From NCBI GenBank assembly GCA_031281275.1, contig JAITFP010000080.1, positions 1 through 34,264 of the forward strand: a DNA stretch of 34,264 nucleotides. The letters are read 5' to 3'. The notes under the pieces were generated by a model that was not told the DNA's origin, did not search any database, and saw nothing but the letters and a program-made list of their open reading frames with translations. Position 1 is the stretch's first letter; the number at the start of each line of letters is the position of its first letter. This DNA is from Candidatus Fibrimonadaceae bacterium. Lineage in GTDB: Bacteria > Fibrobacterota > Fibrobacteria > Fibrobacterales > Fibrobacteraceae. Positions 15,857 to 34,204 of the stretch are shown here, piece after piece. A program made the translations under genes and the position numbers.

Positions 15857-17059
15857 TTATTTTTCAAACACGGCTCCGTATCTGCATTCTTGCGTTTGGG
15901 GGTTATAAAATTCGGTTGCTCCGCATCTTGTAAGGACGGTATTGTTTTTGCATAATTGCGTTGCTGGGTAATAAACAGTTGTTCCGCATTTTGCAAGCAC
16001 AACATTGTCTTTACAGCCTTGCGTTGCTGGATTATAAGGAATATCCCCACACTTTGGAAGTGCAAACACAGCATTGTCTTTGCAACCAAATACTTTTGGG
16101 TCATAAAGGGTTTCCCCGCACCTTGCAAATACAACATTGTCTTTGCAATCGTGTGTTATCGGGTCATAAAGGATTGTTCCACATTTTGCAAGCACAAAAT
16201 CTTTTTTGCATACGTAAGTTTTGGAGTCATAAAATATTTCTCCGCATTTTGCAAGCACAACATTGTCTTTGCAACCGTGTGTTGTTGGGTCATAAGAGGT
16301 TGTTCCACATTTTGGAAATACAAATACAGCATTGTCTTTGCAACCGTGCGTTGCAGGGTTATAAGAAGTTGTTCCACATACTGAAAATAGGGTATTGTTT
16401 TCGCATTTTTGTTTTAACGGATTATATTGAGTTTCGTTGCATAGCGCACGGTAGGCAATATCACCTGAACAAATATGAGTTGTGGGATTATAAGACATGC
16501 CATCGCATAAATCATAAATTCCGCCATCATAGCAAAATTTTTTGTTAGGATTAAATACTGCATCGCATTTTTTTAGAGTAGGACTACTATTATTATTACT
16601 GGTACCAGCACTAATGCTGGCATAGTTCTTTGAAAATTTATCCACTGAGAAATGTTGATCTGCGATTACATTGGCAGTACCAGCATCATTTTCTTTTTTT
16701 ACTGAAGTTCCCAATTTATTTGCTACCATGTTTTTTATCGTTTCTAAGCCAACATCTTTAAGCAAGGATTGTATTTCATCGAGAGATTCTGGAAAAGATT
16801 TAAGGCAGCCGAATGTCATGCCTATATCCATTTTATCGCTATCTTTGGGTTTGCCAAAAGGTGCTTTTGCCTGCAATTTCGCTTTTCCCACTGCTAGTGG
16901 CAAGTCGGTTATGAATTTTTGCATATCAAATCCGTTTCCTTTAGAAATTGTTATGATTTCTTCTACGCAAGATTTGGGAATGTTAGAGGCAGAAGCTATT
17001 GATAGTGCGAAAGTTACTGCAATGGCAGTTAACGCGATTTTTGGGAGTTGTATTTTCAT
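15857..17059 (-). CDS. Secreted protein with eleven two-cysteine repeats
   Basis: A 400-residue exported protein of unknown function. A signal peptide covers about residues 1-24 ('SIASA'). Residues about 25-160 are a unique domain with three or fewer Cys. From Cys165 to the C-terminus there are eleven units of about 21-23 residues with the pattern C-G-x3-Y-[DN]-P-x-T-x2-C-K-[DN]-N-x-V. Each carries two Cys, suggesting one disulfide or metal site per unit. Four related units occur near the end of the 2284-residue GLUG protein in this window. The ATG has AAGGAG about 8 nt upstream and a box variant at 17085-17095. A cell-surface or matrix role is inference. Confidence 0.82.
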   Translation of the reverse strand: MKIQLPKIALTAIAVTFALSIASASNIPKSCVEEIITISKGNGFDMQKFITDLPLAVGKAKLQAKAPFGKPKDSDKMDIGMTFGCLKSFPESLDEIQSLLKDVGLETIKNMVANKLGTSVKKENDAGTANVIADQHFSVDKFSKNYASISAGTSNNNSSPTLKKCDAVFNPNKKFCYDGGIYDLCDGMSYNPTTHICSGDIAYRALCNETQYNPLKQKCENNTLFSVCGTTSYNPATHGCKDNAVFVFPKCGTTSYDPTTHGCKDNVVLAKCGEIFYDSKTYVCKKDFVLAKCGTILYDPITHDCKDNVVFARCGETLYDPKVFGCKDNAVFALPKCGDIPYNPATQGCKDNVVLAKCGTTVYYPATQLCKNNTVLTRCGATEFYNPQTQECRYGAVFEK

Positions 17060-17084
17060 TGTCTGTCTCCTTGTTTTTTATTGA

Positions 17085-17095
17085 AATTTAGAAAA
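17085..17095 (-). promoter_or_regulatory. Promoter-like box TTTTCTAAATT, leadered class
   Basis: One mismatch to the window consensus (TAAATT). It ends 25 nt before the ATG at 17059, which has a Shine-Dalgarno. Confidence 0.45.
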
Positions 17096-17218
17096 TTATG
17101 TTAATTTTGGAAAAAAATGCACAAAAATGTCAACAGATGTTTGCAAAATAACGATTTCTGAATTTTTTTTCCGTTTTTTTACGTCTAACAAGTAACAAGA
17201 AAAAAATGGAGGTTCAAT

Positions 17219-18040
17219 ATGACCGAGGCTAGAACAAACCGCAATCATAAGGATAGTGTGTTCACAAGGCTTTTCAGCGAAAAAAGCAATCTTTTGGAGC
17301 TATATAGCGCAATTAGCGGCAAAAGCTACCCAGAAAGCACAAAGATAGAGATAGTCACTCTCTCGGATGTGCTTTATATGAATCAAATCAACGATATAGC
17401 CTTTGTGATGGAAGACAGGCTTATAGTACTCATTGAGCACCAATCTTCGGTCAATAACAATATGCCGCTTAGGATGCTCCAGTATTTGTCAGCGGAATAC
17501 GATATAATAGTTGACAGAAAAAACCTTTATAAGGAAAAAAGGATAATGATACCATCTCCAGAATTCATAGTTCTGTACAACGGAGATAAAAAATTTCCCG
17601 ATTACAAGGAACTTAAATTATCCGATTCCTTCAAGTTTAAAACCCCCGACTTATATTTGGAGCTTGTGGTAAGGGTTTACAACATAAATAAGGGTCGTAA
17701 TGCGGAGATGGCAAGCAGAAGCCCTGTTCTGAGCGGTTACGAGGAGTTCATATCTGAGATAAAAGAGAATTTAAAGTCTATGGAGCTTCGTGAGGCAATC
17801 AAATTGGCAGTGAAAACTTGCATAAGCAAAAATATTTTAGTATCTTTTCTGGAAAGGCACAGCTCGGAGGTTGAGAATATGTTGCGAGGCGAATGGAATA
17901 TGGATGAAGCCATTGAGGTTAGGTGTGAGGAAGCTAGGGAAGATGAGCGCGAGGAAATTCTAGACCTCATAAAGAAAGGCTATACTTTATCCGACATTGA
18001 GAATCACCTCCGTAGACAAATTCGCCCAGCAACTGCATAG
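17219..18040 (+). CDS. Rpn-family PD-(D/E)XK nuclease / putative transposase
   Basis: A 273-residue member of the Rpn (recombination-promoting nuclease) group, often annotated as a putative transposase. The N-terminus 'KDSVFTRLFSEKSNLLELYSAISG' is the family hallmark. The nuclease core reads 'NDIAFVMEDRLIVLIEHQSS', giving the active-site Asp (about 59) and E-x-Q (about 73-75), the usual variant of ExK in this family. The C-terminus is acidic and basic helical. GGAGG at 17208-17212 lies 6 nt before the ATG. No recurring promoter box and no terminal inverted repeats are visible. Family members in E. coli cut DNA and promote RecA-independent recombination; the role here is unknown. Confidence 0.86.
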   Translation: MTEARTNRNHKDSVFTRLFSEKSNLLELYSAISGKSYPESTKIEIVTLSDVLYMNQINDIAFVMEDRLIVLIEHQSSVNNNMPLRMLQYLSAEYDIIVDRKNLYKEKRIMIPSPEFIVLYNGDKKFPDYKELKLSDSFKFKTPDLYLELVVRVYNINKGRNAEMASRSPVLSGYEEFISEIKENLKSMELREAIKLAVKTCISKNILVSFLERHSSEVENMLRGEWNMDEAIEVRCEEAREDEREEILDLIKKGYTLSDIENHLRRQIRPATA

Positions 18041-18269
18041 CGGAATAGTTCTAATTAAATTCCGATTATTGGTATATTGCCCATAACGCTATCTCCTAAT
18101 TTTGAGGTTTTACCAGAACAATAAAAAACGCCCATCTGTAAAACCTTTACCAAGTGTCTGTTATACTTATTTGCATTAGGGCGACTGGAATGTAGGTGAA
18201 GAATATTCCCTAATGGGGGGAATGTAGAAAATTTCTTTTGTCAGAACCCCGATTCACCCGATTAAAGGA
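18041..18269 (+). other. Intergenic region with gene debris, orphan promoter box and short repeats
   Basis: These 229 bases hold no convincing gene. On the - strand an open frame from the orphan box (18221-18231) runs without an early ATG to a TAA near 18052, including an internal ATG with 'SGKTSK' coding. A 16-base sequence at 18100-18115 recurs at 27110-27125. A GATTCA/GGATT-rich interspersed repeat lies at 18239-18280. It looks like a degraded locus. Confidence 0.5.
18221..18231 (-). promoter_or_regulatory. Orphan promoter-like box TTTTCTACATT
   Basis: Same box as before the zinc-ribbon FISUMP gene, but with no gene within the usual 6-38 nt downstream on the - strand. Probably left over from a decayed gene. 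Confidence 0.35.
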
Positions 18270-18280
18270 TTAACAGGATT
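18239..18280 (-). repeat. Interspersed repeat copy (GATTCA/GGATT family)
   Basis: TGTCAGAACCCCGATTCA at 18239-18256 matches 27254-27271 at 17 of 18 bases. The following AAAGGATTAACAGGATT part resembles intergenic repeats seen in many environmental bacteria. Lies just after the decayed lipoprotein frame. Confidence 0.5.
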
Positions 18281-18485
18281 GCTGGATATATGCGCTTGCT
18301 ATGATGCAAGTTTTTTGGCTTCGCTGACATAACTCACTTAGTCCTTTTTGGGCAAGATCAATGTACTGATACTCCCCATTTGTCCCTTTAACTGGGATTA
18401 TTGAAAAATCTGTGTCTGTTTTGTTTCCGCAAGCGAAGCAGAGAACCATTGCCGTTGCGATGAGTGTTAACTTTACCTTTTTCAT
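18270..18485 (-). pseudogene. Truncated lipoprotein, possibly WG-repeat type
   Basis: A 71-residue frame with a clear lipoprotein signal ('VLCFACG', Cys about 19). It continues 'FSIIPVKGTNGEYQYIDLAQKG', which resembles the first unit of WG-repeat lipoproteins, and then changes to a short unrelated tail ending at TGA near interspersed repeat sequence. I infer a 3' deletion or replacement, not a complete small gene. The start at 18485 is chosen for its AGGAG (18493-18497), which overlaps the stop of the upstream MORN gene; the longer frame to 18515 lies within that gene. It would be translationally coupled to the upstream gene. Confidence 0.5.
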
Positions 18486-18495
18486 ACCTTTTCTC

Positions 18496-19893
18496 CTATT
18501 GTTTTTGTTCCACATCGTCTATGTAATTAATCGTTTTTATTAATTTTCCATCATAGTCAAATGTTTTCATTTCTCCGTGAAGTTTTCCATTTTTATAATT
18601 GGTTACAGATTGTAAATTTCCGTTTATGTAAAATCCTTTAGATTCTCCGTGTTTTTTACCATTATTGTAACGCTCTATGCTTTTCAATTCCCCACTTCCG
18701 TAAAACGATTTCCATTCTCCATGTTCCTTGCCGTCCTTGTAGTATTCTACTCCACTACTCTCGTTACCGTAGAAGTAATCATCATGACTCCATTTCCATT
18801 CTCCTTGCTTCTTACCGTCTATATAATTTCCAATAAGTGAATAACCTTCTTCATCTCCTTCTAAAAGTTTTCCGTGGAATTTTCCGTCTTTCATATTTGC
18901 ATCACAACTATAACCACATGGATAACAATCTGAACAATTAACTTTTCCGCTATATGGTTTATTTTTCATAAAATAAACATCGCCTCTTTTTTCTAACTCA
19001 GATATATGAACTGGGCTAGGACATATTTTGTCTGCTTTTGCTTTTTGGGTTATATATTCTTGCATACATTTGGTCTGTGCTTTGGTATCAATTTTTACTT
19101 GCTGAACCTGAGATTCTTGTTCTTGCTGGCATTTGGTTTGACCACTTGTAACTTTTTCTGATAGAGCTTTATACTCTTCCGAGCATTCTCTATCTTGTGT
19201 TAATCTGGCTTGATATTCTTGCTGGCATTTGTTATAGCCACTGTCTTCCAAACATTTGGCGTAGTCACTTGTAGATTTGTTTGTTTGGGCTTGATATTCT
19301 TGCTGGCATCTGTTATAGCCACTGTCTTCCAAACATTTAGTGTAATCACTCGTAGCTTCGGCATATATTGCTTGGGCTGCTCCCGTACATTTTGTATAAT
19401 CATTTACAGCGGTTTTAACTCCTTGAGCTAATTGGGATTTATATTCTTCCATACATTTAGCCAATCCACTTGTTGCTTGAATTTGCATTAGTCTTGCTTG
19501 ATGTTCTTGTAGGCATTTAGTCTGACTACTAGCTCCTGGACATTCGGCATAGTCGCTTTTAGCTTTGGTTGCTTGAGATTGATATTCTTGTGCACATTTT
19601 ATATAGTTACTGGCTTCTTGGCATTTTGTATAGTCGTCTGTAGCTTTGGCTATTTGAGATTGAGTTTTTTGTGAACATTTTGTTTGAGCACTTTTAATTT
19701 GTTTTAATAGAGATGGAACTTTATATTTTTCCAAGCATTTGTTATATTTGACTTGGTTGCTTGTGTAAGTTTGGCTGCATCTATCGGAAATAGCTTTCGC
19801 TTTCTTGGTTTCAATATCGCAAGCGGATTGTGCAAATGCAATGCTTGTTAGCGTAGTCGCCATTATAACAAAAATGGAGAATATTGTTTTCAT
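18496..19893 (-). CDS. Secreted Cys/Gln-rich repeat protein with C-terminal MORN/YwqK-like repeats
   Basis: A 465-residue exported protein with signal peptide about 1-22 ('SIAFAQ'). Residues about 24-300 are an alpha-helical, Gln/Lys/Tyr-rich segment with a Cys roughly every 10-16 residues ('KCLEDSGYNKCQQEYQAQ' type units), predicted to be coiled-coil and disulfide-linked. Residues about 315-465 contain MORN-like units ('GKKHGEWKSFYGSGELKS' type), the YwqK family pattern, preceded by 'KNKPYSGKV'. AGGAG at 19901-19905 lies 7 nt before the ATG. An 81-bp in-frame tandem duplication lies at 19207-19368. Function is unknown; a surface or envelope scaffold is inference. Confidence 0.8.
   Translation of the reverse strand: MKTIFSIFVIMATTLTSIAFAQSACDIETKKAKAISDRCSQTYTSNQVKYNKCLEKYKVPSLLKQIKSAQTKCSQKTQSQIAKATDDYTKCQEASNYIKCAQEYQSQATKAKSDYAECPGASSQTKCLQEHQARLMQIQATSGLAKCMEEYKSQLAQGVKTAVNDYTKCTGAAQAIYAEATSDYTKCLEDSGYNRCQQEYQAQTNKSTSDYAKCLEDSGYNKCQQEYQARLTQDRECSEEYKALSEKVTSGQTKCQQEQESQVQQVKIDTKAQTKCMQEYITQKAKADKICPSPVHISELEKRGDVYFMKNKPYSGKVNCSDCYPCGYSCDANMKDGKFHGKLLEGDEEGYSLIGNYIDGKKQGEWKWSHDDYFYGNESSGVEYYKDGKEHGEWKSFYGSGELKSIERYNNGKKHGESKGFYINGNLQSVTNYKNGKLHGEMKTFDYDGKLIKTINYIDDVEQKQ
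19207..19368 (-). repeat. 81-bp in-frame tandem duplication
   Basis: Two copies starting at 19207 and 19288 are nearly identical over more than 60 bases, each encoding a 27-residue unit with 'CLEDSGY' and 'CQQEYQA'. It keeps frame, so it can expand or contract without breaking the gene. Confidence 0.75.
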
Positions 19894-20030
19894 TTTCTAA
19901 CTCCTATATTTCCCACTTATTTTCCACATCCAAACCCTTGGGAACACAAGGCTTGGCGAGTTCGTGCCACCATTGGCACAATTATTTGCTACATTTACCA
20001 ATCATAAATCTAACAATATTTTGAGAATAT

Positions 20031-22328
20031 TCATTTTCTCCTTCTCACTTTTCTCTCATCCCCACTTTGCTCAGATTTTTCCTTCATATCCCTCAACATA
20101 CTATAAAAGGGTAATGAAAGACCGCCTTTTATTGTCCAATAATTCGCATTACGATTATCCATTGATATTATGTAATATTGCATATCAACGAAGAAAAGTA
20201 ATCTAAGTCCACCACCGATTGAGAATGATGGGTCAGAGTGCGATTTATCAACGTACCAACCGGCTCCTGTTGTCAAGTACAACCAATTATATTTACCCAA
20301 TGATAACTTTGCTGAAGCTCCTCCTCTACATGAGTATGTACGTGTAGTTGAGTCGTTGTCTTCTTTCTTTTCTATAAAACCAAAATCAACATCCGCTCCA
20401 AACCTTAAATGACCGTCAAAAATACTCACAAATTCAGGATTTATGGATAAAACACTATTGTTTTTATTATATGCCGGATCTATATTTCCTACATTTAAGT
20501 ACCCAAAGCCAATACCAATCATCGGCTCTCTAAGAAGATCGCGGTCATGCTTCTCCGCTTTATTAATCCCCCAATCATTATCTATGCTTGTAGGAACGTT
20601 ATAATCAACATCTATTTGGTCTCGTAAACAACGTACACTAAACAAGACGCTCTTAGCATCTTTGCTTCGGCGTATACGCTCGCCGAGGTAGTACATACCC
20701 TGAAGGTAGGCGTCACTGCTACTGATATCCTTGGGTATCCAATAGACGCTACTACTGCCACTGCCGAAATAGCCTTCCGAATCGCCGTAGCCGCCTGGCA
20801 GGGCGGAAAAGCCATAGGCATCCGTGCCGTTATTGCTGTTCCAGCCACTCTTAGCCCTTAAGACTTTTTCTGCTATTTTTTCATCACCAACAGTTGCTTC
20901 CAATACATCCCACTCTTTTCCGCTTGGCAAATGCCAGCCTTTAGGACAAGCAGTTTTAGCAGTTTCCCAATTATACAATCTCCCATATTTGTCACAGTTG
21001 GCAGATTTGTTGGCATAACACCTGCTACCGTTTGCATTGTAATTCAAATTTTCCGCCATCCACATCTGCCTACCTATATTCACAACTTTGTATCTCTTGC
21101 CATCACGTGAATCGGTAAGGTAACCACCACTCACACCACCTATGTTCTTGACAGTATGCGTAACCTTATCATTATGCTCCAACTTAATATCCACCATTTC
21201 TCTGTCTTTACCTATCTCCACTTTCGCACACAACGGAACGGCGCCGCTGAAAGGCGTTTCTCCAACCTGCTTGCCATTCACAAAAACAGGCTCGCTAACG
21301 GGTTCGCCATCCGCTTCCGCACTCAAAACCAAACCACCCTTTTTCAGCCTTATTTGACTTGCCATATCAAAAACTTCACGCTTGTCCTTGTTTATACCTG
21401 CCTCAAAACTTATATCCCCATAACACCTATGGCTAAGTTCCACGCTATATTTATTGGGTGAAAGCCTGTTTTCAAAAGAGGAAAAGGTTTTGCCATTTAT
21501 GGTCAAACTCCATCGCTCATCTCTGCCAATGCCATCCGAATAAGCTGGCTTTATCTCCAATACCCCGAAATTCGCCTTCATCCGAATGCGTATGCTCTGA
21601 TTATTCTGTTTAATGGAAACAGTTGTGTCTGCTCTTTCGTATTGCTCCAATACAGCAATTATGCGAACACTACCTTCCCTAAGTTCAACTCCGCACGGTG
21701 TTTTCGCGCAACGCTCATCAGGTATTCCATTAAAACTCAAATTGGCTCCTTCTGGGTCGCTTGATATATTTACCAAATAAGGTTTTTCGCCTGCAAATTC
21801 GTAATCACCGCCAGATGTTTGCGCATTGTATATGCCTGGTTCAAAAATGGGTCCGCTTGAAATACCCAGCATTTTCCTGAACATTGCTGGCGCATTTTCG
21901 TTTATTACTGTTAGCAAACCAGATAGGTCTTTAGCTTCGCCCGTGAAGGAACCGATTAAATTGCCTCTAACAACGTTAAACAAATTCATAGTGATGGTCA
22001 AATTACCACCCAAGCGACCCAGCCTCGCCTGACCAATATAATCTGCGCTTATTTCCTTGCCCATCTCTAGCATACATTTATTTTTGCATTCTTCTTTTCT
22101 CTCTGGACCCAGTATTTCTATTATTCTTTCCGAGGTCAAAACATCATATTTATCTTCGGGCAACATTTTCACAGCTATTTCGCGTAGCCTACTGGTCAAA
22201 TAGGTTAATTCCGTGAAATCAAGCTCTGGTTTGCTGTCATCCACAGTGTTCAATATCGCAATAGGCTTTTGCACCTGTGCGTGAGCGGCAAAGGCAAAAA
22301 GTAGCAAAATGAAAAATGATTTTGCCAT
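20031..22328 (-). CDS. CsgG-like / PEGA / FISUMP protein with C-terminal barrel-like domain
   Basis: From the ATG at 22328 this is 765 residues. A signal peptide (about 1-17, 'AAHA') leads into a CsgG/TolB-N-like domain (about 20-165: 'KPIAILNTVDD', 'LTSERIIEIL', 'ADYIGQARLGRLGG'). Two PEGA-like domains follow (about 185-265 and 340-400), then a FISUMP domain (about 407-572: 'WMAENLNY', 'GWHLPSGKEWDVL', 'GFSALPGGYG'). The last 190 residues are Gly/aromatic-rich strands resembling an outer-membrane barrel. The frame stays open to 22397 through a poly-C-encoded proline run, but those residues precede the signal peptide and are unlikely to be translated. ATG 22334 is an alternative start. It is probably an envelope sensor or assembly protein (inference). 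Confidence 0.82.
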   Translation of the reverse strand: MAKSFFILLLFAFAAHAQVQKPIAILNTVDDSKPELDFTELTYLTSRLREIAVKMLPEDKYDVLTSERIIEILGPERKEECKNKCMLEMGKEISADYIGQARLGRLGGNLTITMNLFNVVRGNLIGSFTGEAKDLSGLLTVINENAPAMFRKMLGISSGPIFEPGIYNAQTSGGDYEFAGEKPYLVNISSDPEGANLSFNGIPDERCAKTPCGVELREGSVRIIAVLEQYERADTTVSIKQNNQSIRIRMKANFGVLEIKPAYSDGIGRDERWSLTINGKTFSSFENRLSPNKYSVELSHRCYGDISFEAGINKDKREVFDMASQIRLKKGGLVLSAEADGEPVSEPVFVNGKQVGETPFSGAVPLCAKVEIGKDREMVDIKLEHNDKVTHTVKNIGGVSGGYLTDSRDGKRYKVVNIGRQMWMAENLNYNANGSRCYANKSANCDKYGRLYNWETAKTACPKGWHLPSGKEWDVLEATVGDEKIAEKVLRAKSGWNSNNGTDAYGFSALPGGYGDSEGYFGSGSSSVYWIPKDISSSDAYLQGMYYLGERIRRSKDAKSVLFSVRCLRDQIDVDYNVPTSIDNDWGINKAEKHDRDLLREPMIGIGFGYLNVGNIDPAYNKNNSVLSINPEFVSIFDGHLRFGADVDFGFIEKKEDNDSTTRTYSCRGGASAKLSLGKYNWLYLTTGAGWYVDKSHSDPSFSIGGGLRLLFFVDMQYYIISMDNRNANYWTIKGGLSLPFYSMLRDMKEKSEQSGDERKVRRRK

Positions 22329-22368
22329 ATTCATAACATCCTGCCAACGGAGCCGAGAAAATCCGCGT

Positions 22369-22596
22369 TTATTCTGGGGGGGGGGGGGGGGGGTCATAGT
22401 AACCTATAGAAATGCCTTCTATTGCGTCACAAATAATGTTAGAATTGCGTATCTGCGACTCGGAGTGATTTTTGCCGAGCGAGAAAAAGGGAGGTTTATT
22501 TGGCACGTATGAGGGCATAAAAGGCAAATGGGAAAAACTGCTTTTATAGCTTGCACCGCAAGCCTTGCCAAAAATTGTTTTACTGTATAAAGACAT
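22369..22596 (-). CDS. Possible 75-residue ORF ending in the poly-C tract
   Basis: The frame starts at an ATG 11 nt after a box TTTCTATATT and ends just after the 18-base C tract, giving a C-terminal run of six Pro. The product has no recognised domain, no signal peptide and no Shine-Dalgarno. Its frame relative to the next gene depends on tract length: with 17 or 20 C's it would read in frame into the CsgG-like gene. It may instead be a long untranslated leader of that gene. Confidence 0.3.
   Translation of the reverse strand: MSLYSKTIFGKACGASYKSSFSHLPFMPSYVPNKPPFFSLGKNHSESQIRNSNIICDAIEGISIGYYDPPPPPPE
22376..22393 (+). repeat. Homopolymer of 18 G (C on the coding strand)
   Basis: Eighteen consecutive G's lie 47 bp upstream of the CsgG-like/FISUMP start, between it and its nearest upstream promoter box. 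Such tracts are hotspots for slipped-strand mispairing and also for sequencing error. Confidence 0.85.
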
Positions 22597-22607
22597 AATT
22601 GGGTATA

Positions 22608-22617
22608 AATATAGAAA
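22608..22617 (-). promoter_or_regulatory. Promoter-like box TTTCTATATT
   Basis: The box begins 7 nt after the zinc-ribbon FISUMP stop and ends 11 nt before the ATG at 22596. It is the only box found upstream of the CsgG-like gene. Confidence 0.5.
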
Positions 22618-22624
22618 TTTCCTC

Positions 22625-23425
22625 TCAATCCTTTACATAACGAACACTGCACAAGTCCCTTTTATTTCTGCTATTCCATTCTATGGTATAGTTCTTATGG
22701 TTCATATAGAAGTAGTAAGCATGAGTAGCATAGGATGGAGTTAAGATTTTACTACTGTCAATGTGGCTGTATTCGACTTTGTTATGCCAATCCTCTGTAG
22801 CACTCCACCAACAACCGTATTCACCTGCAAGTTCGAATCTATTATACGAACTGTCGTAGCAACCGCCTGGCAATGCTGCAAAACCGAGCCTATCCTCACC
22901 GTTGCCAGATTTTTCTTTTCCTTTACTGTCATACCAACTATTCCAACCCTCCCTTGCCTTAATATATTTACCAACCTTTGAAATTTTCGTGGGAATTCCG
23001 TTGCATATGTAACTATTCAATTCATTCCAGTCATCATTATTCGGCAAATGCCAACCACTCGGGCAGATTTTATTAGCTGTTTCCCAATCGTAAAGACGAC
23101 CGTATTTGTCGGAGTTAGCTTGTATTTCATCATTTGACAATTCACTATCTTCGCCATAGCATTTGCTACCATCGACCCCATAATTCAGATTCTCTGCCAT
23201 CCAAACTTGGTCGTTTATTCTTACTGTTTTATACGCCCTGCCCTCAAGGTCAATAAAAGGGGTACTAGGGATGTTAGAGACACTAGGAATTGTAGTCGTG
23301 ACCTTTGTTCCGCAGTTGGGGCAAAAGTTCATATTGTTTTTTAGTTTATTTCTGCGAGATAAACCGCAATTAGGGCAAAAGTTCGTATCCTCTTTCAATT
23401 CATATCCGCAATTTGAACAGAACAT
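22625..23425 (-). CDS. Zinc-ribbon protein with FISUMP domain
   Basis: A 266-residue protein with an unusual architecture. The N-terminus is a zinc ribbon with CxxC pairs at Cys3/6 and Cys17/20, followed by a third CPNC pair at 35/38 that has no partner. A Thr/Pro/Ser linker leads to one FISUMP domain (about 60-265: 'VWMAENLNYG', 'GRLYDWETANKICPSGWHLP', 'GFAALPGGCY', 'GCWWSATED', 'VRYV'). No signal peptide or membrane segment is present, so it should be cytoplasmic, unlike the other two FISUMP proteins here. ATG 23425 is chosen because AGGAG lies 8 nt upstream and zinc-ribbon proteins typically open 'MFCSNCG'. The ATG at 23452 is an alternative. Function is unknown. Confidence 0.82.
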   Translation of the reverse strand: MFCSNCGYELKEDTNFCPNCGLSRRNKLKNNMNFCPNCGTKVTTTIPSVSNIPSTPFIDLEGRAYKTVRINDQVWMAENLNYGVDGSKCYGEDSELSNDEIQANSDKYGRLYDWETANKICPSGWHLPNNDDWNELNSYICNGIPTKISKVGKYIKAREGWNSWYDSKGKEKSGNGEDRLGFAALPGGCYDSSYNRFELAGEYGCWWSATEDWHNKVEYSHIDSSKILTPSYATHAYYFYMNHKNYTIEWNSRNKRDLCSVRYVKD

Positions 23426-23463
23426 AACTTTTTCTCCTATATTTTTTCCCATTTTTAAGAGTA

Positions 23464-23474
23464 AATGTAGAAAA
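23464..23474 (-). promoter_or_regulatory. Promoter-like box TTTTCTACATT, leadered class
   Basis: The box lies 6 nt after the priA stop and 38 nt before the Shine-Dalgarno-bearing ATG at 23425. A second ATG at 23452 lies 11 nt after it. Confidence 0.5.
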
Positions 23475-23480
23475 TCATCT

Positions 23481-25417
23481 TTAACAATCCCTATCCACAC
23501 GCATCTCCACTCCCTTTGCCGCCTTCACAACCGCTGGATTTGCAAGGACGCTTTTAATTACGTTTTTCATATCTGTTGCGTTTGCGGTTTTTATTGTTAT
23601 TGACATACGGTGATTTTTTTGCACACGGGAAATATATGGTTCTGTGGGACCTAAAACCGTTGGGTTGTAGGGGCAGCCACGTAGGGTTGCCCCTACAACG
23701 GATGCGGCGGTTTCGACCTTGGTTTTGTTTTTTCCTTGGATTCTTATTTGTGATATTTTGCAGAATGGGGGGTAGGAGGCTTCTTGCCTGTCGGCAAGTT
23801 CGCGGGCGGCGAAGCCTTTGTAATCGTGGGTTATGGCAAATTGCATAACGGGGTTTTCGGGGCAGAATGTTTGGATTATCACTTTGGAATTTTTTAGAAA
23901 ACGTCCTGCTCTGCCTGCTACTTGTGTTAAAAGCTGAAAATATCTTTCGTTTGCACGAAAATCTGGAATGGAGCTTCCTATGTCTGCACATAGTACGCCA
24001 ACTAGAGAGACGCTTGGAAAATCGTGACCTTTTGCTACCATTTGAGTTCCTAAAAGAATATTGCCTTCTTTGTTTCTGAATTTTTGCAAGAGTTTTTCGG
24101 TTGCTCCTATTTTGCCTGTGGTATCGGAATCCATGCGGATGATTTTTGCGTTTGGCAACCATTCCTTGATTTCTTCCTCGGCTTTTTCTATGCCGCTACC
24201 CCAGAATACGAATTTTTTTGAACCGCATTTGCAGGAAATGTCTGCGGGATAAAGTTTTCCGCAATAGTGGCACATCAGTTTGCCGTATTGTTTGTGATAA
24301 ACTAAGGTTACGTTGCAGTCTTTGCATTCCAAGGATTCTCCGCATTCCTCGCAAATTCTGTTTGCACTGTAGCCTCTGCGGTTCAGCAAAATTATCGCTT
24401 GGTTGCCTTCTGAAATGGTTTGGGAAAGGGCATCGCGCAAAATAGGGGAGAGCATTAAATCTTTGTCTTGTTTTTTTCTCTGCTCTTTCATATCGGTTAT
24501 AAGCACTTGCGGAAGTGGAAGACCGCCGGGGCGTTCATTCATTTCTATAAGTTTGAGATTGCCGTTTTTTGCGTTGCTGTATGATTCCAAAGAAGGTGTT
24601 GCAGAACCCAAAACCACAAGAGCGCTGTATTTGTGCGCAATATGAAAAGCCATTTCCTTGACATTGTAGCGTGGGGCAGGGTCTTGCTGTTTGTAAGAAG
24701 AATCGTGTTCTTCGTCTATTATTATGAGTTGAGGTTCAAAGGGGGTGAGAATTGCGGAGCGGGTGCCCATTAAAACATTCGATTCTTTATTTAATAATTT
24801 TCTCCACGCCTCGCGTTTTTCACGCGCTCCTAATGCGGAATGCAAAATTGGAATTTCGCAGCCTAAAAAATCTTCAAATCGTTTTTTTGTTTGCGGGGTT
24901 AAATTTATTTCTGGAACAAGTATAAGGGTTTTCATTCCAAGCCTTTGTGCTTTGCTCACTAGTTCCAAATAAACTCGTGTTTTGCCAGAACCCGTTACTC
25001 CGTGCAGCAACGCGCCTCTAAATCCGCTTGTTTGCAGCATATCGCTTAACACATCAAGGGCGTTTTGCTGTTCGGGCGTTAAGGGGGCGTGCATAGATAT
25101 TTCTCCAATTCTTTTGGCAAAAATGCAGTTAAGGCTTCGCCCGTGGAGCACATATAATAATTTGCACACCACAAAAGTTTTTCTATATAAGGCTCAGAGA
25201 ATACATAGCCGGACTCGTGCGCTATTGCAGGTTTTAGTTCAAAGCTCGGAAAATTTTTGTGAACATTCAAAACAAGAGCGAGCAAAGGTTTTTTGCGCCC
25301 TCTTAAAGATACCCAAACAACCGAGCCTTTTTTAATATTCTCGTCTATGCCATAAGACAAACTGTCCAGAGTTGTGTTGGGTATGCAAATTTCGGCAACC
25401 GCTGCATAGTTTGGCAC
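23481..25417 (-). pseudogene. priA: Primosomal helicase PriA, split by a frameshift
   Basis: PriA is the 3'-to-5' helicase that restarts stalled forks. A GTG-started frame (25417-25079, 112 aa) encodes the N-terminal 3'-DNA-binding domain. The helicase part ('LTPEQQNAL', Walker A 'GVTGSGKT', 'DEEH', zinc-binding Cys cluster 'CEECGESLECKDC' and 'CHYCGK', 'QVAGRAGR') lies in another frame ending at 23481. The break coincides with a C5 run (G's at 25083-25087); one more C would fuse the frames. Alternatively, an ATG at 25094 with GGAG 8 nt upstream could restart translation. Joined length (about 649 aa) fits compact PriA lacking a clear winged-helix insert. The start overlaps the preceding lipoprotein stop (TAGTG). 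Confidence 0.9.
23664..23699 (-). repeat. 36-bp palindromic element inside priA
   Basis: Perfect 12-bp arms (GTTGTAGGGGCA / TGCCCCTACAAC) flank a 12-nt loop. It occupies exactly 12 codons in frame (VVGATLRGCPYN) between the PriA helicase core and 'VLGP'. The sequence resembles a GTAGGGGC-type stem-loop repeat common between genes in many bacteria. Confidence 0.75.
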
Positions 25418-27176: not shown

Positions 27177-30100
27177 CTACCTCACTGCTATGCGTATGGT
27201 TTTGGAGTTAATTTTCACTATATACATTCCTGCATGAACCTGAATTTTCAAATTGTCTGAACCCCGATTCAAGGATTTGCCCGATGCGAATACGAGTTTG
27301 CCTTGGGTGTTGTATGCCTCGACCTTTGCGCCCTGGGGTAGGTTTGAGAGCAGGATTGCGTTGTTGGTTGTGTGTACCAATATGTTGCCTATGCTTGCGG
27401 TTTGCGGAGGAAGAATAGGAGTTGGATTGGGAATCACTTCTCCGCTTTTGCATTTTTCATAAGAGGGGTCATACGAACTGCCGCCGCATAGGGAATAGAC
27501 TTTGTCATCAAGGCAGAATTGCTTTTCCTCGTTATACCAGCTGCTTTTCCCGCATTTGTACTGAAGAACACTGCCTGAGCATTTATTCGTTTCAGGGTCA
27601 TAATCTGAACCGTTGCATTTCGAATAAACTTTGTCATTATAACAGAATTGCTTTTCATAGTTTATTGTGCTATTTCCGCATTTATCTACCACAACAGTTG
27701 GAGGCGGAGTTGGAGTTGGTGTCGGCGTAGGCGTTGGTGTCGGTGTTGGTTGGGCGGTGATGATTGCGATAACGCTTGCGGGTTGCGCGGAAAGCGTGTA
27801 GTTGCCTGCATCTGCGCCAGTAAGGGAGAATCCGCTGAATGTCACTGTTTTGCTGGTTCCTACACTTGCGTTGTCAAATGAAGCTGTGCCATTGACAACT
27901 GTTACATTATCGCTGGTAATTTTTCCGTTGATTGTCGGGGTTCCAGTAATCGTAGCGGTTGTGGTGCCATCGTATTCTTTGTTGGCTACAAATACGGTGA
28001 TGGTTACGGGTTTTGGTGTTATGTTTGCGGTAACGCTAGCGGGTTGCGTGTATGTGTAGTTGCCTGCATCTGTACCGCTAAGGGAGAATCCGGTGAATGT
28101 TACGGTTTTGCCCGTTCCAACATTTTTATCGCTAAATGAAGCTGTGCCATTGGCAACTGTTACTACATCTCCGTCAATTTTTCCGTTGATTATCGGTGTT
28201 CCCGTAATTGTAGCGGTTGCGTTGCCGTCATAAACTTTGTTGTTTGCCGATGCTGTGATGGTTACGGGTTTCTTTGTTATTGTAAAACTTCCTTCTGTTG
28301 TACTAACATAATTTCCTATGCCTATGATTGTGATTTTTGCGGTTCCGGCATTCCTGTTATTGAAATAAATGACTGTGTAATCAGTGTTTTTTGTGAGCTC
28401 TGTCCCGCCAAATTTCACGGTAAAGGAGGTGGGTTCTATCGCAGAACCTGTATAGGGGTGAGATGCTAATTCAAAGGTATTTGCTTCTAAGACAGTTTTG
28501 CCTACAGACTGCCATTTTAAAATTGGATAGCTTCTGTGTAATTCCCAGATGTTTGTAAAATCCCAGCCCGCATAAGTGCTTTGAGTTTTCATTTCGTCTG
28601 TAGTTTTGCCTATCCCTTTGTCCGTGTCCGTTCTGCCATAAGTTTCCTTATCGTAGTAGCTGTTGCTAACTGTGCCGCCCAACAACATCCCGACCAAGCC
28701 GCCGACATTGCTACCGCTCGTGCCAGATACTCCACCAGTTGCATAGCTATTGCTAACTGTGCCGCCCGACATCCCGACCAAGCCACCAACATAGATGTTA
28801 CCCGACACGTTTCCCATGGCGTAGCTGTTGCTGATTGTGCTGATGTTATTACAGCCACCACCACTATTATCTGCCACACAGTCATTCCCCCCGACCAAGC
28901 CGCCGACACCGTTATTACCCGACACATTTCCAATTGCGTAGCTTTTGTTGATTGTACTTCTCATGTTCATCCCGACTACCCCGACTAAGCCGCCGACATT
29001 GTTTTTGCCTACTACACCGCCCTTGCTATTGTTAATCTCCACACCTACGTTCCTTATCTCTGCTCCAGAAGCATAACCGAACAAGCCCACATAGTTAGCC
29101 ATAGGCCTGTTTATCCAAAGCCCCGACACCTTATGCCCATTCCCGTCGAATTTGCCATAGAAATTATTACTATTATTGCCTATCGGCTGCCAGCCTGCGC
29201 TTGTGTTGGCGATGTAACTGTCCAAGTTTATATCGTTCTGCAACTCGTAGTATTTGCCTGAGTAGTCACTACCAAGGCAATTGCTTATTGCATCCAAGTT
29301 TTTGGCATTTTCTATCATGTAAGGGTCAGTATCTGTTCCCGTTCCGCCAGCAAAGTCAGTTCCACAAGCGGCAGGGACAATTTTAAACTCCACGATTTTA
29401 GCTTGACCAGAATAGTTGCCTTTGCCAACTATTCTCAGTGTTGCCGTGCCAGTTTGAATATTATTATAGTAGGCATATTCAAAATTAGTGCCCTCAGTTA
29501 GATTATTTCCATTGAAGCTGATGTTTGGCGTGGGGGTTATTGGGCTACCTGTCCATGTTTGACTAGGTATGGCGGCAACTACGGCATTTCCAAAATGATT
29601 CTGATTTTGCCAAACCAAAGTAGGATAGCCGTTGTTCTTCGTTGAATTTATTTCCCAGATTCCTTCAAAGTCCCAGCCATTGTAAGTACTTTGGATTTTC
29701 ATCTCTGCGGTAGTTTTGCCTATTCCTTTGCCTGTGTCTGTTTGCCCAGAAGTCTGCTTATTGTAGTAGCTGTTGCTGATTATGCCACTGTGGCTTCCGA
29801 CCAAGCCGCCAACCGATACGCTTCCCGATACGCTTCCAATTGCGTAGCTGTTGCTGATTATGCCACTGTGGCTTCCAACCAAGCCGCCTACATAGTTGCT
29901 GTTGTTACCCGTGCTAGATACATTTCCAATTGCGTAGCTATTACTGATTATGCCGCTGTTTTGCCCGACCAAGCCGCCAACAAAGTTGCCACCTATGCTA
30001 GATACGCTTCCAATTGCATAGCTGCCGCTGATTGTGCTGTTGTTGTAATTATACCCGACTAAGCCGCCGACATTGTGTTTGCCTACTACACCGCCCTTGC

Positions 30101-33100
30101 TATTGTTAATCTCCACACCTACGTTCCTTATCTCTGCTCCAGAAGTATAACCGAACAAGCCAATTTCACTCTCTGTAGGTCTATTTATCCAAAGCCCAGA
30201 CACTTTGTGGCTATTTCCGTTGAATTTGCCATTGAAATTCCCTATCGGCTGCCAGCCTGCACTTGTGTTGGCAATGTAGCCACCCAAGTCTATATCGTTT
30301 TGCAATTCGTAGTATTTGCCCGAGTAGCTATAGCCAAGGCAATTGCTGATTGCATCCAAGTTTTTAGCATTTGCTATCATGTAAGGGTCAGTATCTGTTC
30401 CCGTTCCGCCAGCAAAACCTATTTCGCAGGCGGCAGCAACGATTTTAAATTCTACCAACTTAGCTTGACCGTAGTAGCTGTTTTTGCCAACTATTTTCAA
30501 GGTTGCAGTGCCCGTTTGAACATTATTGTCGTAGGCATATGTAAAATCAGTACCCTCAGTTAGATTTCCATTGAAGTTCACGCTTGGCTTTGGGGTTATT
30601 TGGCTGCCTGTCCATGTCTGATCAGGTATTGCAAAAACAATGGCATTTGCAATATGGCTTGGACTCTGCCAAACCAAAATTGGGTAGCCGTTGTTCATCG
30701 TGGGATTGATTTCCCAGATGCTTTCAAAATCCCAGCCCTCGTAAGTGCTTTTGGTTTTCATCTCTGCTGTGGTTTTGCCTATCCCTTTGCCTGTGTCTGT
30801 TCCGCCAGTGGTTCCCTTATCGTAGTAGCTATTGCTGATTGTTGTACCGCTATTATTATACCCAATCAAGCCGCCAACAGAGCTGCTCGTACCCGATACG
30901 CTTCCCGTTGCATAGCTGTTGCTGATTGTGCCGCTACTAATATACCCGACCAAGCCACCGACATATCCACTACCAGTAACGCTTCCCGTTGCGTAGCTGT
31001 TGCTGATTGTGCCCATAGCATTCTGCCCGACCAAGCCGCCAACATAGCTGCCACCTATGCTAGATACGCTTCCAGTTGCATAGCTATTACTGATTGTGAT
31101 GCTATTGTTATACCCGACCAAGCCACCAACAGAGCTGCTCGTACCCGATACGCTTCCTGTTGCGTAACTGTTGCTGATTGTGCTTCTGCTGCCGCTGCCT
31201 GTTCTGTTGATGTAGTCAGACCCGACCAAGCCGCCGACATAGCTCATGCCCGATATGTTTCCCGTTGTGTAGCTGTTGCTGATTGTGATGTTGCTACTGT
31301 TACCCCCTACCAAGCCACCAACATATTGGCTGCCTACGACCCCACCCTTGACATTGTTAATCTCCACGCCTAAGTTCCTTATCTCCGCATTATAAGTATA
31401 ACCAAACAAGCCCACATAAGACTCCGCAGGCCTGTTTATCCAAAGCCCAAACACCTTATGGCCGTTCCCATTTAGATTGCCACTGAAAGAAAAAGTATAA
31501 GAGAAGTCTTCTTCTTTGTAGTAACCAATCGGCTGCCAGCCTGCACTTGAATTCGCTAAGTAGCTGCCCAAATCTACTATATCGTTTTGTAATTCGTAGT
31601 ATTTGCCCGAATAGCTACTACCAAGGCAGTTGTTGATGGCATCTAAATTTTTGGCACTGCCTATCTTGTAAGGGTCAGACACCGTTCCCGTTCCACCGTT
31701 GGTAAAGCCTGTTCCGCAGGCAGCGGTAACGATTGTAAATTCCACCACCCTAGTTTGACCAAGATAATCGCCTTTGCCAACTATCCTTAGTGTTGCAGTG
31801 CCAGTTTGAATATTATTATCGTATTCATAGTTAAAATGAGTGCCCTTAGTTAGATTATTTCCCTTGAAACTAACATTTGGTTCTGGAGTTATGGGGCTAC
31901 CTGTCCATGTCTGATTTGATATGGCAGTAACTATGGCATTTCCAAAATGATACTGATTTTGCCAAACCAGAGTCGGGTAGCCGTTGTTCTTTCCTGAGCT
32001 TATTTCCCAAATGCCTTCAAAGTCCCAGCCATCGTAAGTGCTTTTGGTTTTCATTTCAGCTGTGGTTTTACCTATTCCCTTGCCAGTGTCTGTTTTGCCA
32101 GTGGTTCCCTTGTCATAGTAGCTATTACTGATTATGCCGCTGTTTTGCCCGACCAAGCCGCCGACAGTGTTACCCGTACCAGATACACTTCCAGTTGCGT
32201 AGCTATTACTGATGGGACCGTTGTTGATCCCGACCAAGCCGCCGACAGTGTTACCCGTACCCGATACGCTTCCAGTTGCGTAGCTATTGCTGATTGTGGT
32301 GCCGTTACTAAGCCCGACCAAGCCGCCGACAGTGTATGTGCCCGATACGCTTCCAGTTGTGTAGCTGCTACTGATTTTACCGCTGTTTTGCCCGACCAAG
32401 CCGCCGACATAACTATTGCCTACGACCCCGCCCTTGCTATTGTCAATCTCCACTCCTATATTTTTTATCTCTGCTCCGCTATAAACAAATCCGAACAAAC
32501 CCACATATCTTGTCGTAGGCATGTTTATCCAAAGCCCCGATACCTTATGCCCATTTCCGTCGAATTTGCCATAAAAATAATTGCTGCCACTGCTGCCTAT
32601 CGGCTGCCAGCCTGCACTTGAATTCGCTAAGTAGCTACCAAAATCTACTATATCGTTTTGTAATTCGTAGTATTTACCCGAATAGCTACTACCAAGGCAG
32701 TTGTTGATGGCATCTAAATTTTTGGCACTGACTATCTTGTAAGGGTCAGATGCCGTTCCCGTTCCACCGTTGGTAAAGCCTATTCCACAGGCGGCAGGAA
32801 CGATTTCAAATTCTACCAACTTAGCTTGACCGAGGTAGCTGCCTTTGCCAACTATTCTTAATGTTGCAGTACCAGTTTGAATATTATTATCGTATTCATA
32901 GTTAAAATGAGTGCCCTTAGTTAGATTATTTCCCTTGAAACTAATATTTGGTTCTGGGGCTATAGGGCTACCTGTCCATGTCTGGTTCGGTATAGCGGCA
33001 ACTATGGCATATCCAAAATGATCCTGATTTTGCCAGAACAGAGTCGGGTAACCGTTGTTTTTTCCTGAGCTTATTTCCCAGATGCCTTCAAAATCCCAGC

Positions 33101-34031
33101 CTTCGTAAGTGCTTTTGATTTTCATCTCGGCTGTGGTTTTGCCTATTCCCTTGCCCGTGTCTGTTTTGCCTGTGGTTCCCTTGTCGTAGTAACTGCCGAT
33201 GACTGTGCTGATGATACCTATGCCGACCAAGCCGCCACCGTTTCCCGATATGCTTCCCGACACGCTTCCCGTAGCGTAGCTATTGATTATTGCACTGCCC
33301 TCTCTGTTATACCCGACCAAGCCGCCAACACATTGACTGTTGCTTGACACATTCCCCGTAGCGTAGCTATTGCTGATTATGCCACTGTTGTCTCCGACCA
33401 AGCCGCCAGCAAGGTCAACGCCCGTAACTCTTCCCGTTGCGTAGCTGTTGCTGATTGTGCCATAAGTCATATTGGCCCCGACCAAGCCGCCAACAATAAA
33501 TGTTCCCAACCCCGACACGTTACCCGTAACGTAACTGTTATTAATTTTGCCGTCGTTGCTTCCGACCAAGCCGCCAACACTGCTACTACCTACGACCCCG
33601 CCCTTGCTATTGTCAATCTCCACACCTATATTCTTTATCTCCCCAGAAAGACCACTGAACAAACCGACAACATCCTCTGTAGGTCTGTTTATCCAAAGCC
33701 CCAACACCTTATGACCATTTCCGTTGAGCTTGCCCCAGAAACGACCAACCGGTTTCCAGCCTGCTCCATTGTTATTCCCCGGACCTTCCAAATACGAAGC
33801 CAAATCAATATCATCCTCCAAAATATAATAATAAGGATTATTTTGAATAATTGGTCCCGAACACTCATTCAAATTCTGCAACTGCTGCACAGTACGAATC
33901 TTATAAGGGTCTGCCTCCGTTCCAGCACCGCCAGCGAACAGAAGAGATGGTGTGCATTCAGCAAAAGACGTGTGAACGCCGAAGGTGCACAAAATGGCAA
34001 AAGCCAATGTTTTCATAATTCCTTTCTTCAT
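27177..34031 (-). CDS. Giant modular GLUG-repeat surface protein (2284 residues)
   Basis: A signal peptide (about 1-24) leads into five modules beginning near residues 26, 411, 768, 1198 and 1553. Each has a 'GGTGTDPY' head, a 'GWQPIG' and 'NGNGHKVSGLWI' segment, GLUG repeats ('GGLVGxNxGxISNSYATGSVSG'), and a 'TDTGKGIGKTTAEM' segment. The first four then add a 'QTWTGSPITP' Ig-like unit. Next come a similar Ig-like unit (about 1860-1915), two YDG-type domains (about 1919-2090), a (PT)n linker (about 2094-2111), four two-Cys repeats (about 2114-2198) and a type IX-like tail ending 'MYIVKINSKTIRIAVR'. AGGAG lies 7 nt before the ATG. It is probably an exported adhesin (inference). High inter-module identity means assembly length may be unreliable. 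Confidence 0.88.
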   Translation of the reverse strand: MKKGIMKTLAFAILCTFGVHTSFAECTPSLLFAGGAGTEADPYKIRTVQQLQNLNECSGPIIQNNPYYYILEDDIDLASYLEGPGNNNGAGWKPVGRFWGKLNGNGHKVLGLWINRPTEDVVGLFSGLSGEIKNIGVEIDNSKGGVVGSSSVGGLVGSNDGKINNSYVTGNVSGLGTFIVGGLVGANMTYGTISNSYATGRVTGVDLAGGLVGDNSGIISNSYATGNVSSNSQCVGGLVGYNREGSAIINSYATGSVSGSISGNGGGLVGIGIISTVIGSYYDKGTTGKTDTGKGIGKTTAEMKIKSTYEGWDFEGIWEISSGKNNGYPTLFWQNQDHFGYAIVAAIPNQTWTGSPIAPEPNISFKGNNLTKGTHFNYEYDNNIQTGTATLRIVGKGSYLGQAKLVEFEIVPAACGIGFTNGGTGTASDPYKIVSAKNLDAINNCLGSSYSGKYYELQNDIVDFGSYLANSSAGWQPIGSSGSNYFYGKFDGNGHKVSGLWINMPTTRYVGLFGFVYSGAEIKNIGVEIDNSKGGVVGNSYVGGLVGQNSGKISSSYTTGSVSGTYTVGGLVGLSNGTTISNSYATGSVSGTGNTVGGLVGINNGPISNSYATGSVSGTGNTVGGLVGQNSGIISNSYYDKGTTGKTDTGKGIGKTTAEMKTKSTYDGWDFEGIWEISSGKNNGYPTLVWQNQYHFGNAIVTAISNQTWTGSPITPEPNVSFKGNNLTKGTHFNYEYDNNIQTGTATLRIVGKGDYLGQTRVVEFTIVTAACGTGFTNGGTGTVSDPYKIGSAKNLDAINNCLGSSYSGKYYELQNDIVDLGSYLANSSAGWQPIGYYKEEDFSYTFSFSGNLNGNGHKVFGLWINRPAESYVGLFGYTYNAEIRNLGVEINNVKGGVVGSQYVGGLVGGNSSNITISNSYTTGNISGMSYVGGLVGSDYINRTGSGSRSTISNSYATGSVSGTSSSVGGLVGYNNSITISNSYATGSVSSIGGSYVGGLVGQNAMGTISNSYATGSVTGSGYVGGLVGYISSGTISNSYATGSVSGTSSSVGGLIGYNNSGTTISNSYYDKGTTGGTDTGKGIGKTTAEMKTKSTYEGWDFESIWEINPTMNNGYPILVWQSPSHIANAIVFAIPDQTWTGSQITPKPSVNFNGNLTEGTDFTYAYDNNVQTGTATLKIVGKNSYYGQAKLVEFKIVAAACEIGFAGGTGTDTDPYMIANAKNLDAISNCLGYSYSGKYYELQNDIDLGGYIANTSAGWQPIGNFNGKFNGNSHKVSGLWINRPTESEIGLFGYTSGAEIRNVGVEINNSKGGVVGKHNVGGLVGYNYNNSTISGSYAIGSVSSIGGNFVGGLVGQNSGIISNSYAIGNVSSTGNNSNYVGGLVGSHSGIISNSYAIGSVSGSVSVGGLVGSHSGIISNSYYNKQTSGQTDTGKGIGKTTAEMKIQSTYNGWDFEGIWEINSTKNNGYPTLVWQNQNHFGNAVVAAIPSQTWTGSPITPTPNISFNGNNLTEGTNFEYAYYNNIQTGTATLRIVGKGNYSGQAKIVEFKIVPAACGTDFAGGTGTDTDPYMIENAKNLDAISNCLGSDYSGKYYELQNDINLDSYIANTSAGWQPIGNNSNNFYGKFDGNGHKVSGLWINRPMANYVGLFGYASGAEIRNVGVEINNSKGGVVGKNNVGGLVGVVGMNMRSTINKSYAIGNVSGNNGVGGLVGGNDCVADNSGGGCNNISTISNSYAMGNVSGNIYVGGLVGMSGGTVSNSYATGGVSGTSGSNVGGLVGMLLGGTVSNSYYDKETYGRTDTDKGIGKTTDEMKTQSTYAGWDFTNIWELHRSYPILKWQSVGKTVLEANTFELASHPYTGSAIEPTSFTVKFGGTELTKNTDYTVIYFNNRNAGTAKITIIGIGNYVSTTEGSFTITKKPVTITASANNKVYDGNATATITGTPIINGKIDGDVVTVANGTASFSDKNVGTGKTVTFTGFSLSGTDAGNYTYTQPASVTANITPKPVTITVFVANKEYDGTTTATITGTPTINGKITSDNVTVVNGTASFDNASVGTSKTVTFSGFSLTGADAGNYTLSAQPASVIAIITAQPTPTPTPTPTPTPTPPPTVVVDKCGNSTINYEKQFCYNDKVYSKCNGSDYDPETNKCSGSVLQYKCGKSSWYNEEKQFCLDDKVYSLCGGSSYDPSYEKCKSGEVIPNPTPILPPQTASIGNILVHTTNNAILLSNLPQGAKVEAYNTQGKLVFASGKSLNRGSDNLKIQVHAGMYIVKINSKTIRIAVR
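27254..27285 (-). repeat. Interspersed repeat copy inside the giant gene
   Basis: This stretch codes for residues S-G-K-S-L-N-R-G-S-D in the C-terminal tail. Part of it matches 18239-18256 (17 of 18) and part matches 34156-34175 in inverted orientation (19 of 20). The single-module paralogue is about three residues shorter here. Confidence 0.55.
27700..27752 (-). repeat. Short-period repeat encoding the Pro-Thr linker
   Basis: A run of degenerate 6-bp units encodes alternating Pro-Thr, a flexible linker that can change length by slippage without loss of frame. Confidence 0.7.
28500..29373 (-). repeat. GLUG module 5 of the giant gene
   Basis: Begins with the 'CGTDFAGGTGTDTDPYMI' head and ends after the 'GKTTDEM' and 'GWDFTNIW' segment. 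Shorter than modules 2-4 because it lacks the 'QTWTGSPITP' unit. Boundaries are approximate. Confidence 0.7.
29374..30437 (-). repeat. GLUG module 4 of the giant gene
   Basis: A complete module with head, GLUG repeats, 'TDTGKGIGKTTAEM' and Ig-like unit. Most similar in its head ('GGTGTDTDPYMI') to module 5. Boundaries are approximate. Confidence 0.7.
30438..31727 (-). repeat. GLUG module 3 of the giant gene
   Basis: The longest module (about 1.29 kb), with the most GLUG repeats. Its first about 140 bases are nearly identical to the start of module 2. Boundaries are approximate. Confidence 0.7.
31728..32797 (-). repeat. GLUG module 2 of the giant gene
   Basis: The stretch 32641-32780 differs from the matching part of module 3 (31570-31710) at only a few positions, pointing to recent duplication or gene conversion. 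Boundaries are approximate. Confidence 0.7.
32798..33960 (-). repeat. GLUG module 1 of the giant gene
   Basis: The N-terminal module has a distinct head ('GGAGTEADPYKIRTVQQLQNLN') that resembles the separate 356-residue GLUG protein more than modules 2-5. Its 'TDTGKGIGKTTAEM' and Ig-like parts match the others. Confidence 0.7.
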
Positions 34032-34185: not shown

Positions 34186-34204
34186 GGGGGGGGGGGGGGG
34201 GGGG
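34186..34204 (+). repeat. Homopolymer of 19 G upstream of the giant gene
   Basis: Nineteen consecutive G's lie about 155 bp upstream of the giant GLUG start. It could change promoter spacing by slippage. The remaining 34205-34264 is AT-rich with no gene visible. Confidence 0.85.

Follow-up and report, generated by a model that had tools for sequence, protein, structure and literature searches.

Probable poly-C promoter tracts in termite-gut Fibrobacteraceae

In Bordetella, the genes fim2, fim3 and fimX carry a promoter poly-C of 10-19 residues upstream of the -10 element, in which changes of a single C alter transcription (PMC1891110), and for fim3 the difference between 13C and 14C switches Fim3 production (PMC10172299). 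The surface-protein gene opc of Neisseria meningitidis has a promoter poly-C as well, and Opc expression differs between tracts of 11 and 12 C (PMC3447861). In Treponema pallidum, homopolymers within the promoters of putative outer-membrane proteins, tprL among them, affect promoter activity (PMC7864442), and Campylobacter jejuni strains have a median of 20 phase-variable tracts (PMC6321876). Here we describe a homopolymer of 18 residues located in front of a gene for a secreted Fib_succ_major (FISUMP) protein in a contig of 34,264 nucleotides (JAITFP010000080.1, referred to as the window), which belongs to a Candidatus Fibromonas-like metagenome-assembled genome (MAG; GCA_031281275.1, Fibrobacteraceae) from termite gut. 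Fibromonas MAGs from higher termites have been placed in the Fibrobacteraceae as the sister group to Fibrobacter (PMC7024585).

We consider it probable, at roughly 0.6, that this homopolymer belongs to a group of poly-C promoter tracts, spread over the genome and prone to slippage, that bring about transcriptional phase variation in termite-gut Fibrobacteraceae. The tracts would sit in the promoter regions of genes whose products are lipoproteins or otherwise secreted, and polymerase slippage within the population would add or remove single Cs. Each gain or loss would alter how far a -10-like element at the downstream edge of the tract is from what stands upstream, be it a -35-like element or a site for an activator, and transcription would then shift reversibly and randomly among cells. 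If this is true, dozens of surface proteins, many being FISUMP proteins, would switch at random, and the cells of one fibre-degrading symbiont would differ toward plant fibre, phages or host. Fib_succ_major proteins have been tabulated among cellulose-binding proteins (PMC4704652).

The mechanism class is a known one, and what is added is its unusual scale and a phylum, Fibrobacterota, for which no report of phase variation was found in the literature searched. As in Bordetella fim, a long poly-C stands in front of a surface-protein gene, here in a putative promoter region. A few genes share the fim box in Bordetella, where the effect of length is established, whereas tens of genes from many families are concerned here, and an activator site and a length effect would be putative. 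The opc gene is similar in having a poly-C tract before a surface-protein gene, but its tract is shorter, the phylum is unrelated, and its promoter and switching are proven where ours are conjectural. In T. pallidum the tract is named as G; in the termite-gut MAGs it is C on the gene strand and has stereotyped borders. Campylobacter resembles our genomes in having tens of G/C tracts per genome, although these are shorter and mostly located in open reading frames (PMC6321876), in contrast to the longer poly-C tracts upstream of genes found here.

The window tract and its gene

The following features of the window, all on the minus strand, are relevant to the tract.

20031..22334, minus strand: gene putatively controlled by the tract, encoding a secreted protein with a signal peptide and PEGA and Fib_succ_major domains; start at MNMAK (22334) or MAK (22328)
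22340..22375, minus strand: leader AGAATAAACGCGGATTTTCTCGGCTCCGTTGGCAGG, present eight times in the genome and in six of these cases behind pure poly-C; the same leader stands behind poly-C in sister MAGs
22368..22373, minus strand: candidate -10-like hexamer AATAAA just past the tract, 4/6 to TATAAT, spacer 18; putative site, from the sequence and the border statistics
22376..22393, minus strand: homopolymer tract, G18 on the plus strand and C18 on the gene strand
22392..22397, minus strand: candidate -35-like edge ATGACC, the upstream border of the tract, 4/6 to TTGACA; putative site, from the border statistics over non-redundant tracts
22493..22620, minus strand: dispersed intergenic repeat 5' of the window tract and of several others, source of a 75-codon upstream frame

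The G18 at 22376-22393 is exact in the assembled sequence, as an earlier sequence-only reading of the window had reported, and the expected number of such runs in the 34-kb window is ~5e-8 from its composition. The length value of 18 should be read as approximate. G/C runs in the window otherwise reach at most 7, except for a second tract, G19, at 34186-34204. Over 301 kb of the same genome the lengths of G/C runs are bimodal, with a count of 1 at length 10 and then counts climbing to 6-8 at lengths 14-18, and the long G/C tracts therefore form a separate class and not the tail of a distribution. A/T runs in the same 301 kb reach at most 11, plus a single run of 21.

Since the gene lies on the minus strand, the tract is poly-C on the transcript strand, where the order is CTATGA-C18-AGAATAAACGCGGATTTTCTCGGCTCCGTTGGCAGGATGTTATGAATATGGCAAAATC, and the distance from C18 to the likely start of the protein is 41-47 nt. 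Comparison with paralogues suggests that the protein starts at one of the two methionines listed above and has a signal peptide. Predicted N-termini that read through poly-proline at tract genes are probably wrong. The gene had been labelled CsgG-like/FISUMP in the sequence-only reading; the protein has PEGA and Fib_succ_major domains, and a Pfam CsgG match was not obtained at E<=0.001. Scanning GTDB contigs for proteins related to the product of the window gene gave zero matches, and an Rfam scan of the window gave no match. The 2.7-Mb genome (G000) contains 161 Fib_succ_major (PF09603) matches; 70-119 have been reported for Fibromonadaceae genomes (PMC4704652).

A genome-wide family of tracts

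The MAG that contains the window has 57 G/C runs of at least 10. Runs of at least 12 number 51 in this MAG, 14-43 in each of the sister MAGs G005, G015, G024, G030 and G039, 13 and 7 in two further genomes of the genus (G035 and G037, respectively) and 0-2 in four others. The other genera of the family mostly have 0-4 such runs, with G008 (29) and G011 (5) as exceptions. Seven MAGs were included in the detailed study of the tracts. Their flank-filtered tracts consist of 12-25 C, with C18 at the window, and thus exceed the length of at least 8 G/C residues regarded as slip-prone.

The tracts are strongly polar with respect to genes. Of the 74 tracts flanked on each side by 300 bp or more, 51/74 have a gene start within 220 nt exclusively on the C side, 3/74 exclusively on the G side, 11/74 on both sides and 9/74 on neither side. 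In the MAG of the window, signal peptides were predicted, by a home-made heuristic predictor, for 21/27 genes after tracts vs. 66/177 other genes (p=1e-4), and by this measure the target genes preferentially encode surface or secreted products. They include genes for lipoproteins, FISUMP proteins and proteins with N-termini resembling that of the window gene.

In Fibromonas-like MAGs, many contig breaks fall at tracts, as might be expected if the poly-G had been made or lengthened by dark cycles or contig-end errors. In the MAG of the window, 41/57 runs lie no more than 300 bp from a contig end vs. 1.6 expected, and in 33/41 of these the upstream side is lost and the gene side kept. Runs at contig ends extend up to 46-64 bases, some of them then passing into GC-rich junk, and such runs are probably artefacts. 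Contig ends of this MAG with GC-rich junk or long G runs are, for example, C102:37401-37463, C98:1-76 and C111:1-63. As an account of the tracts, a sequencing or assembly artefact is nevertheless highly improbable: 16 runs lie >300 bp from both contig ends, including the G18, which is 11.9 kb inside its contig; the polarity to genes and the border motifs described below are not explicable by chemistry; and in an independently produced HiSeq 2000/2500 dataset (PMC7024585) one contig starts inside the C run before the same leader. Any one of length heterogeneity, read failure past G runs and nearby repeats could account for the breaks at tracts.

Tract borders and the putative promoter

Across the tracts after reduction of redundancy, TT[TG]?[AG] is found directly before the tract in 43% vs. 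5.9% at other offsets, and TA directly after it in 33% vs. ~8% elsewhere, the border motif classes having been picked after the flanks had been viewed. These stereotyped borders look like the edges of -35 and -10 elements, as in TTGA-C15-GTTTAAAC and TTGCTA-C15-TATACT. The sequence-only reading had placed the window tract between the only upstream promoter box and the start. We could not reproduce that box, the lone sigma-70-like match near the start (22347-22319) being downstream of the tract and at chance level, and the tract may be better placed in or touching the promoter core. The implied spacers spread widely, as would be expected if it is spacer length that varies.

Several observations weigh against a promoter spacer of variable length. 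The implied spacers peak at 14-16 nt and not at 17, TATAAT matches after the tracts are no higher than in shuffled flanks, and a start codon follows three of the tracts at a distance of 19-22 nt, with no room for a -10 element past the tract. The -35 and -10 candidates of the window itself each have only 4/6 matches, and the length differences seen are those between modules and between species. Because the motif classes are post hoc, the TATAAT comparison is null and three tracts are near start codons, the promoter-spacer step is one that we infer, and the promoter positions given above are putative. No inverted repeats were found to flank the tracts, the scores of left and right flanks being equal to those of shuffled pairings, and an invertible promoter of the Bacteroidales type was rejected on this ground.

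The three tracts close to start codons have a ribosome-binding site right behind the run, and at the window tract an adjoining ATG (22397) shares the reading frame of the gene at C15, C18 and C21. Both observations would fit tracts that are phase-variable but act in the 5' leader or start region, through RNA structure, translation or an N-terminal extension from the tract-touching ATG. We regard such a role as unlikely, since the start is distant in most cases (median tract-to-start distance 89 nt), the downstream TA border fits a -10 element better, the tract-touching ATG is absent from paralogues and the frame upstream of the window tract is not conserved in copies of the repeat from which it derives.

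With regard to this upstream frame, the arithmetic of the sequence-only reading is correct: the 75 codons end just past C18, and the frame would enter the gene at a tract length of 17 or 20 and stop just inside it at 19. The translation coupling suggested on this basis did not survive comparison, however, because the frame is frameshifted or stopped in other copies of the repeat, including one located 5' of a paralogous gene, and coupling is therefore not a conserved design. A coding constraint on the repeat frame was rejected; the 75-residue frame is a by-product of the dispersed intergenic repeat. Translational (frameshift) phase variation was likewise discarded, no conserved frame having been found to run through the tract into the gene. 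What remains of the phase switch proposed earlier is chiefly the switch itself, for which the tracts give good indirect support through their recurrence, their polarity, their position and their stereotyped borders; the mechanisms put forward for it are less well supported.

Length differences among loci and species

Tracts of differing length stand beside near-identical leaders. The six copies of the window leader behind pure tracts are preceded by 13, 18, 19, 19, 21 and 26 C (the 26 at a contig end); of the other two copies, one is behind an interrupted tract, CCCCCTCCCCCGCCCC, and one is without a tract. In sister species the same leader is found behind 15 or 17 C, preceding different, unrelated genes. 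A DnaA-like orthologue (81% identity) carries 18 C in G024 and 21 C in G030, between flanks that have diverged, and the orthologue in the MAG of the window and a paralogue in G024 are without tract. Since lengths differ and tracts are absent among related loci, tracts have been gained, resized and lost over evolutionary time. Leader and tract-module patterns were searched for in viral contigs and none were found.

The DnaA-like gene encodes a Bac_DnaA ATPase and a DnaA C-terminal domain (G024:C58:1285-2427, L302; G030:C31, L303), and its tract is located just before the start.

Tentatively, and at somewhat less than even odds, the tracts may constitute a transcriptional phasome that is large and specific to the lineage. 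Dozens of tracts slipping independently, partly in the form of cassettes with shared leaders, would in that case provide each cell of a fibre-degrading symbiont of the termite gut with its own random set of surface lipoproteins, FISUMP proteins included, and the cassette would spread to unrelated genes.

The sharing of upstream repeats and leaders by many loci, together with the variable presence of the tract at the DnaA-like gene between genomes and paralogues, would also be compatible with tracts that are inert, i.e. runs that grew by slippage in dispersed intergenic repeats 5' of accessory genes and leave expression unchanged. The window gene is itself part of a 6.7-kb block that is absent from G024. 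We find this explanation distinctly improbable, because many of the flanks are unrelated (76-79 of 99 non-redundant), yet polarity, borders and the preference for secreted genes are kept; because flanking inverted repeats are lacking; and because the runs are pure over 13-21 bases, the broken copy being the exception.

Locus context and further observations

G024 is the nearest relative of the MAG studied here, and beside the site of the tract gene it keeps the priA-like and zinc-ribbon FISUMP genes at ~86% DNA identity. Window positions 15858-22608, the block with the tract gene, are missing from G024, where the next gene at the site encodes a PfkB kinase, located here at 14839-15822. The tract gene thus sits in an accessory block, and a same-locus comparison of tract length with G024 is impossible because the gene is absent there. 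The block also holds a gene for a YhgA-like putative transposase (PF04754) and one for a secreted protein that is repetitive and has a carbohydrate-binding-like match. The zinc-ribbon FISUMP gene (22625-23500) encodes a protein in which zinc ribbons at the N-terminus are fused to a Fib_succ_major domain, and is directly downstream of the priA-like gene.

The second tract of the window is located 60 bp from the contig end, in front of a gene for a large secreted protein.

34186..34204, minus strand: second tract of the same class, C19 on the gene strand, then TTATTATCAGG; from the sequence
27177..34031, minus strand: gene behind the second tract, encoding a secreted GLUG/YDG-domain protein of 2284 residues

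MutS (PF01624) was unmatched in the MAG of the window (78.65% complete) and in G041 (62%), and each of the ten remaining genomes of the genus has a match; the non-match may be explained by genome incompleteness. Elsewhere in the window, positions 3484-5100 encode a 538-residue protein in which shikimate kinase is fused to 3-dehydroquinate synthase.
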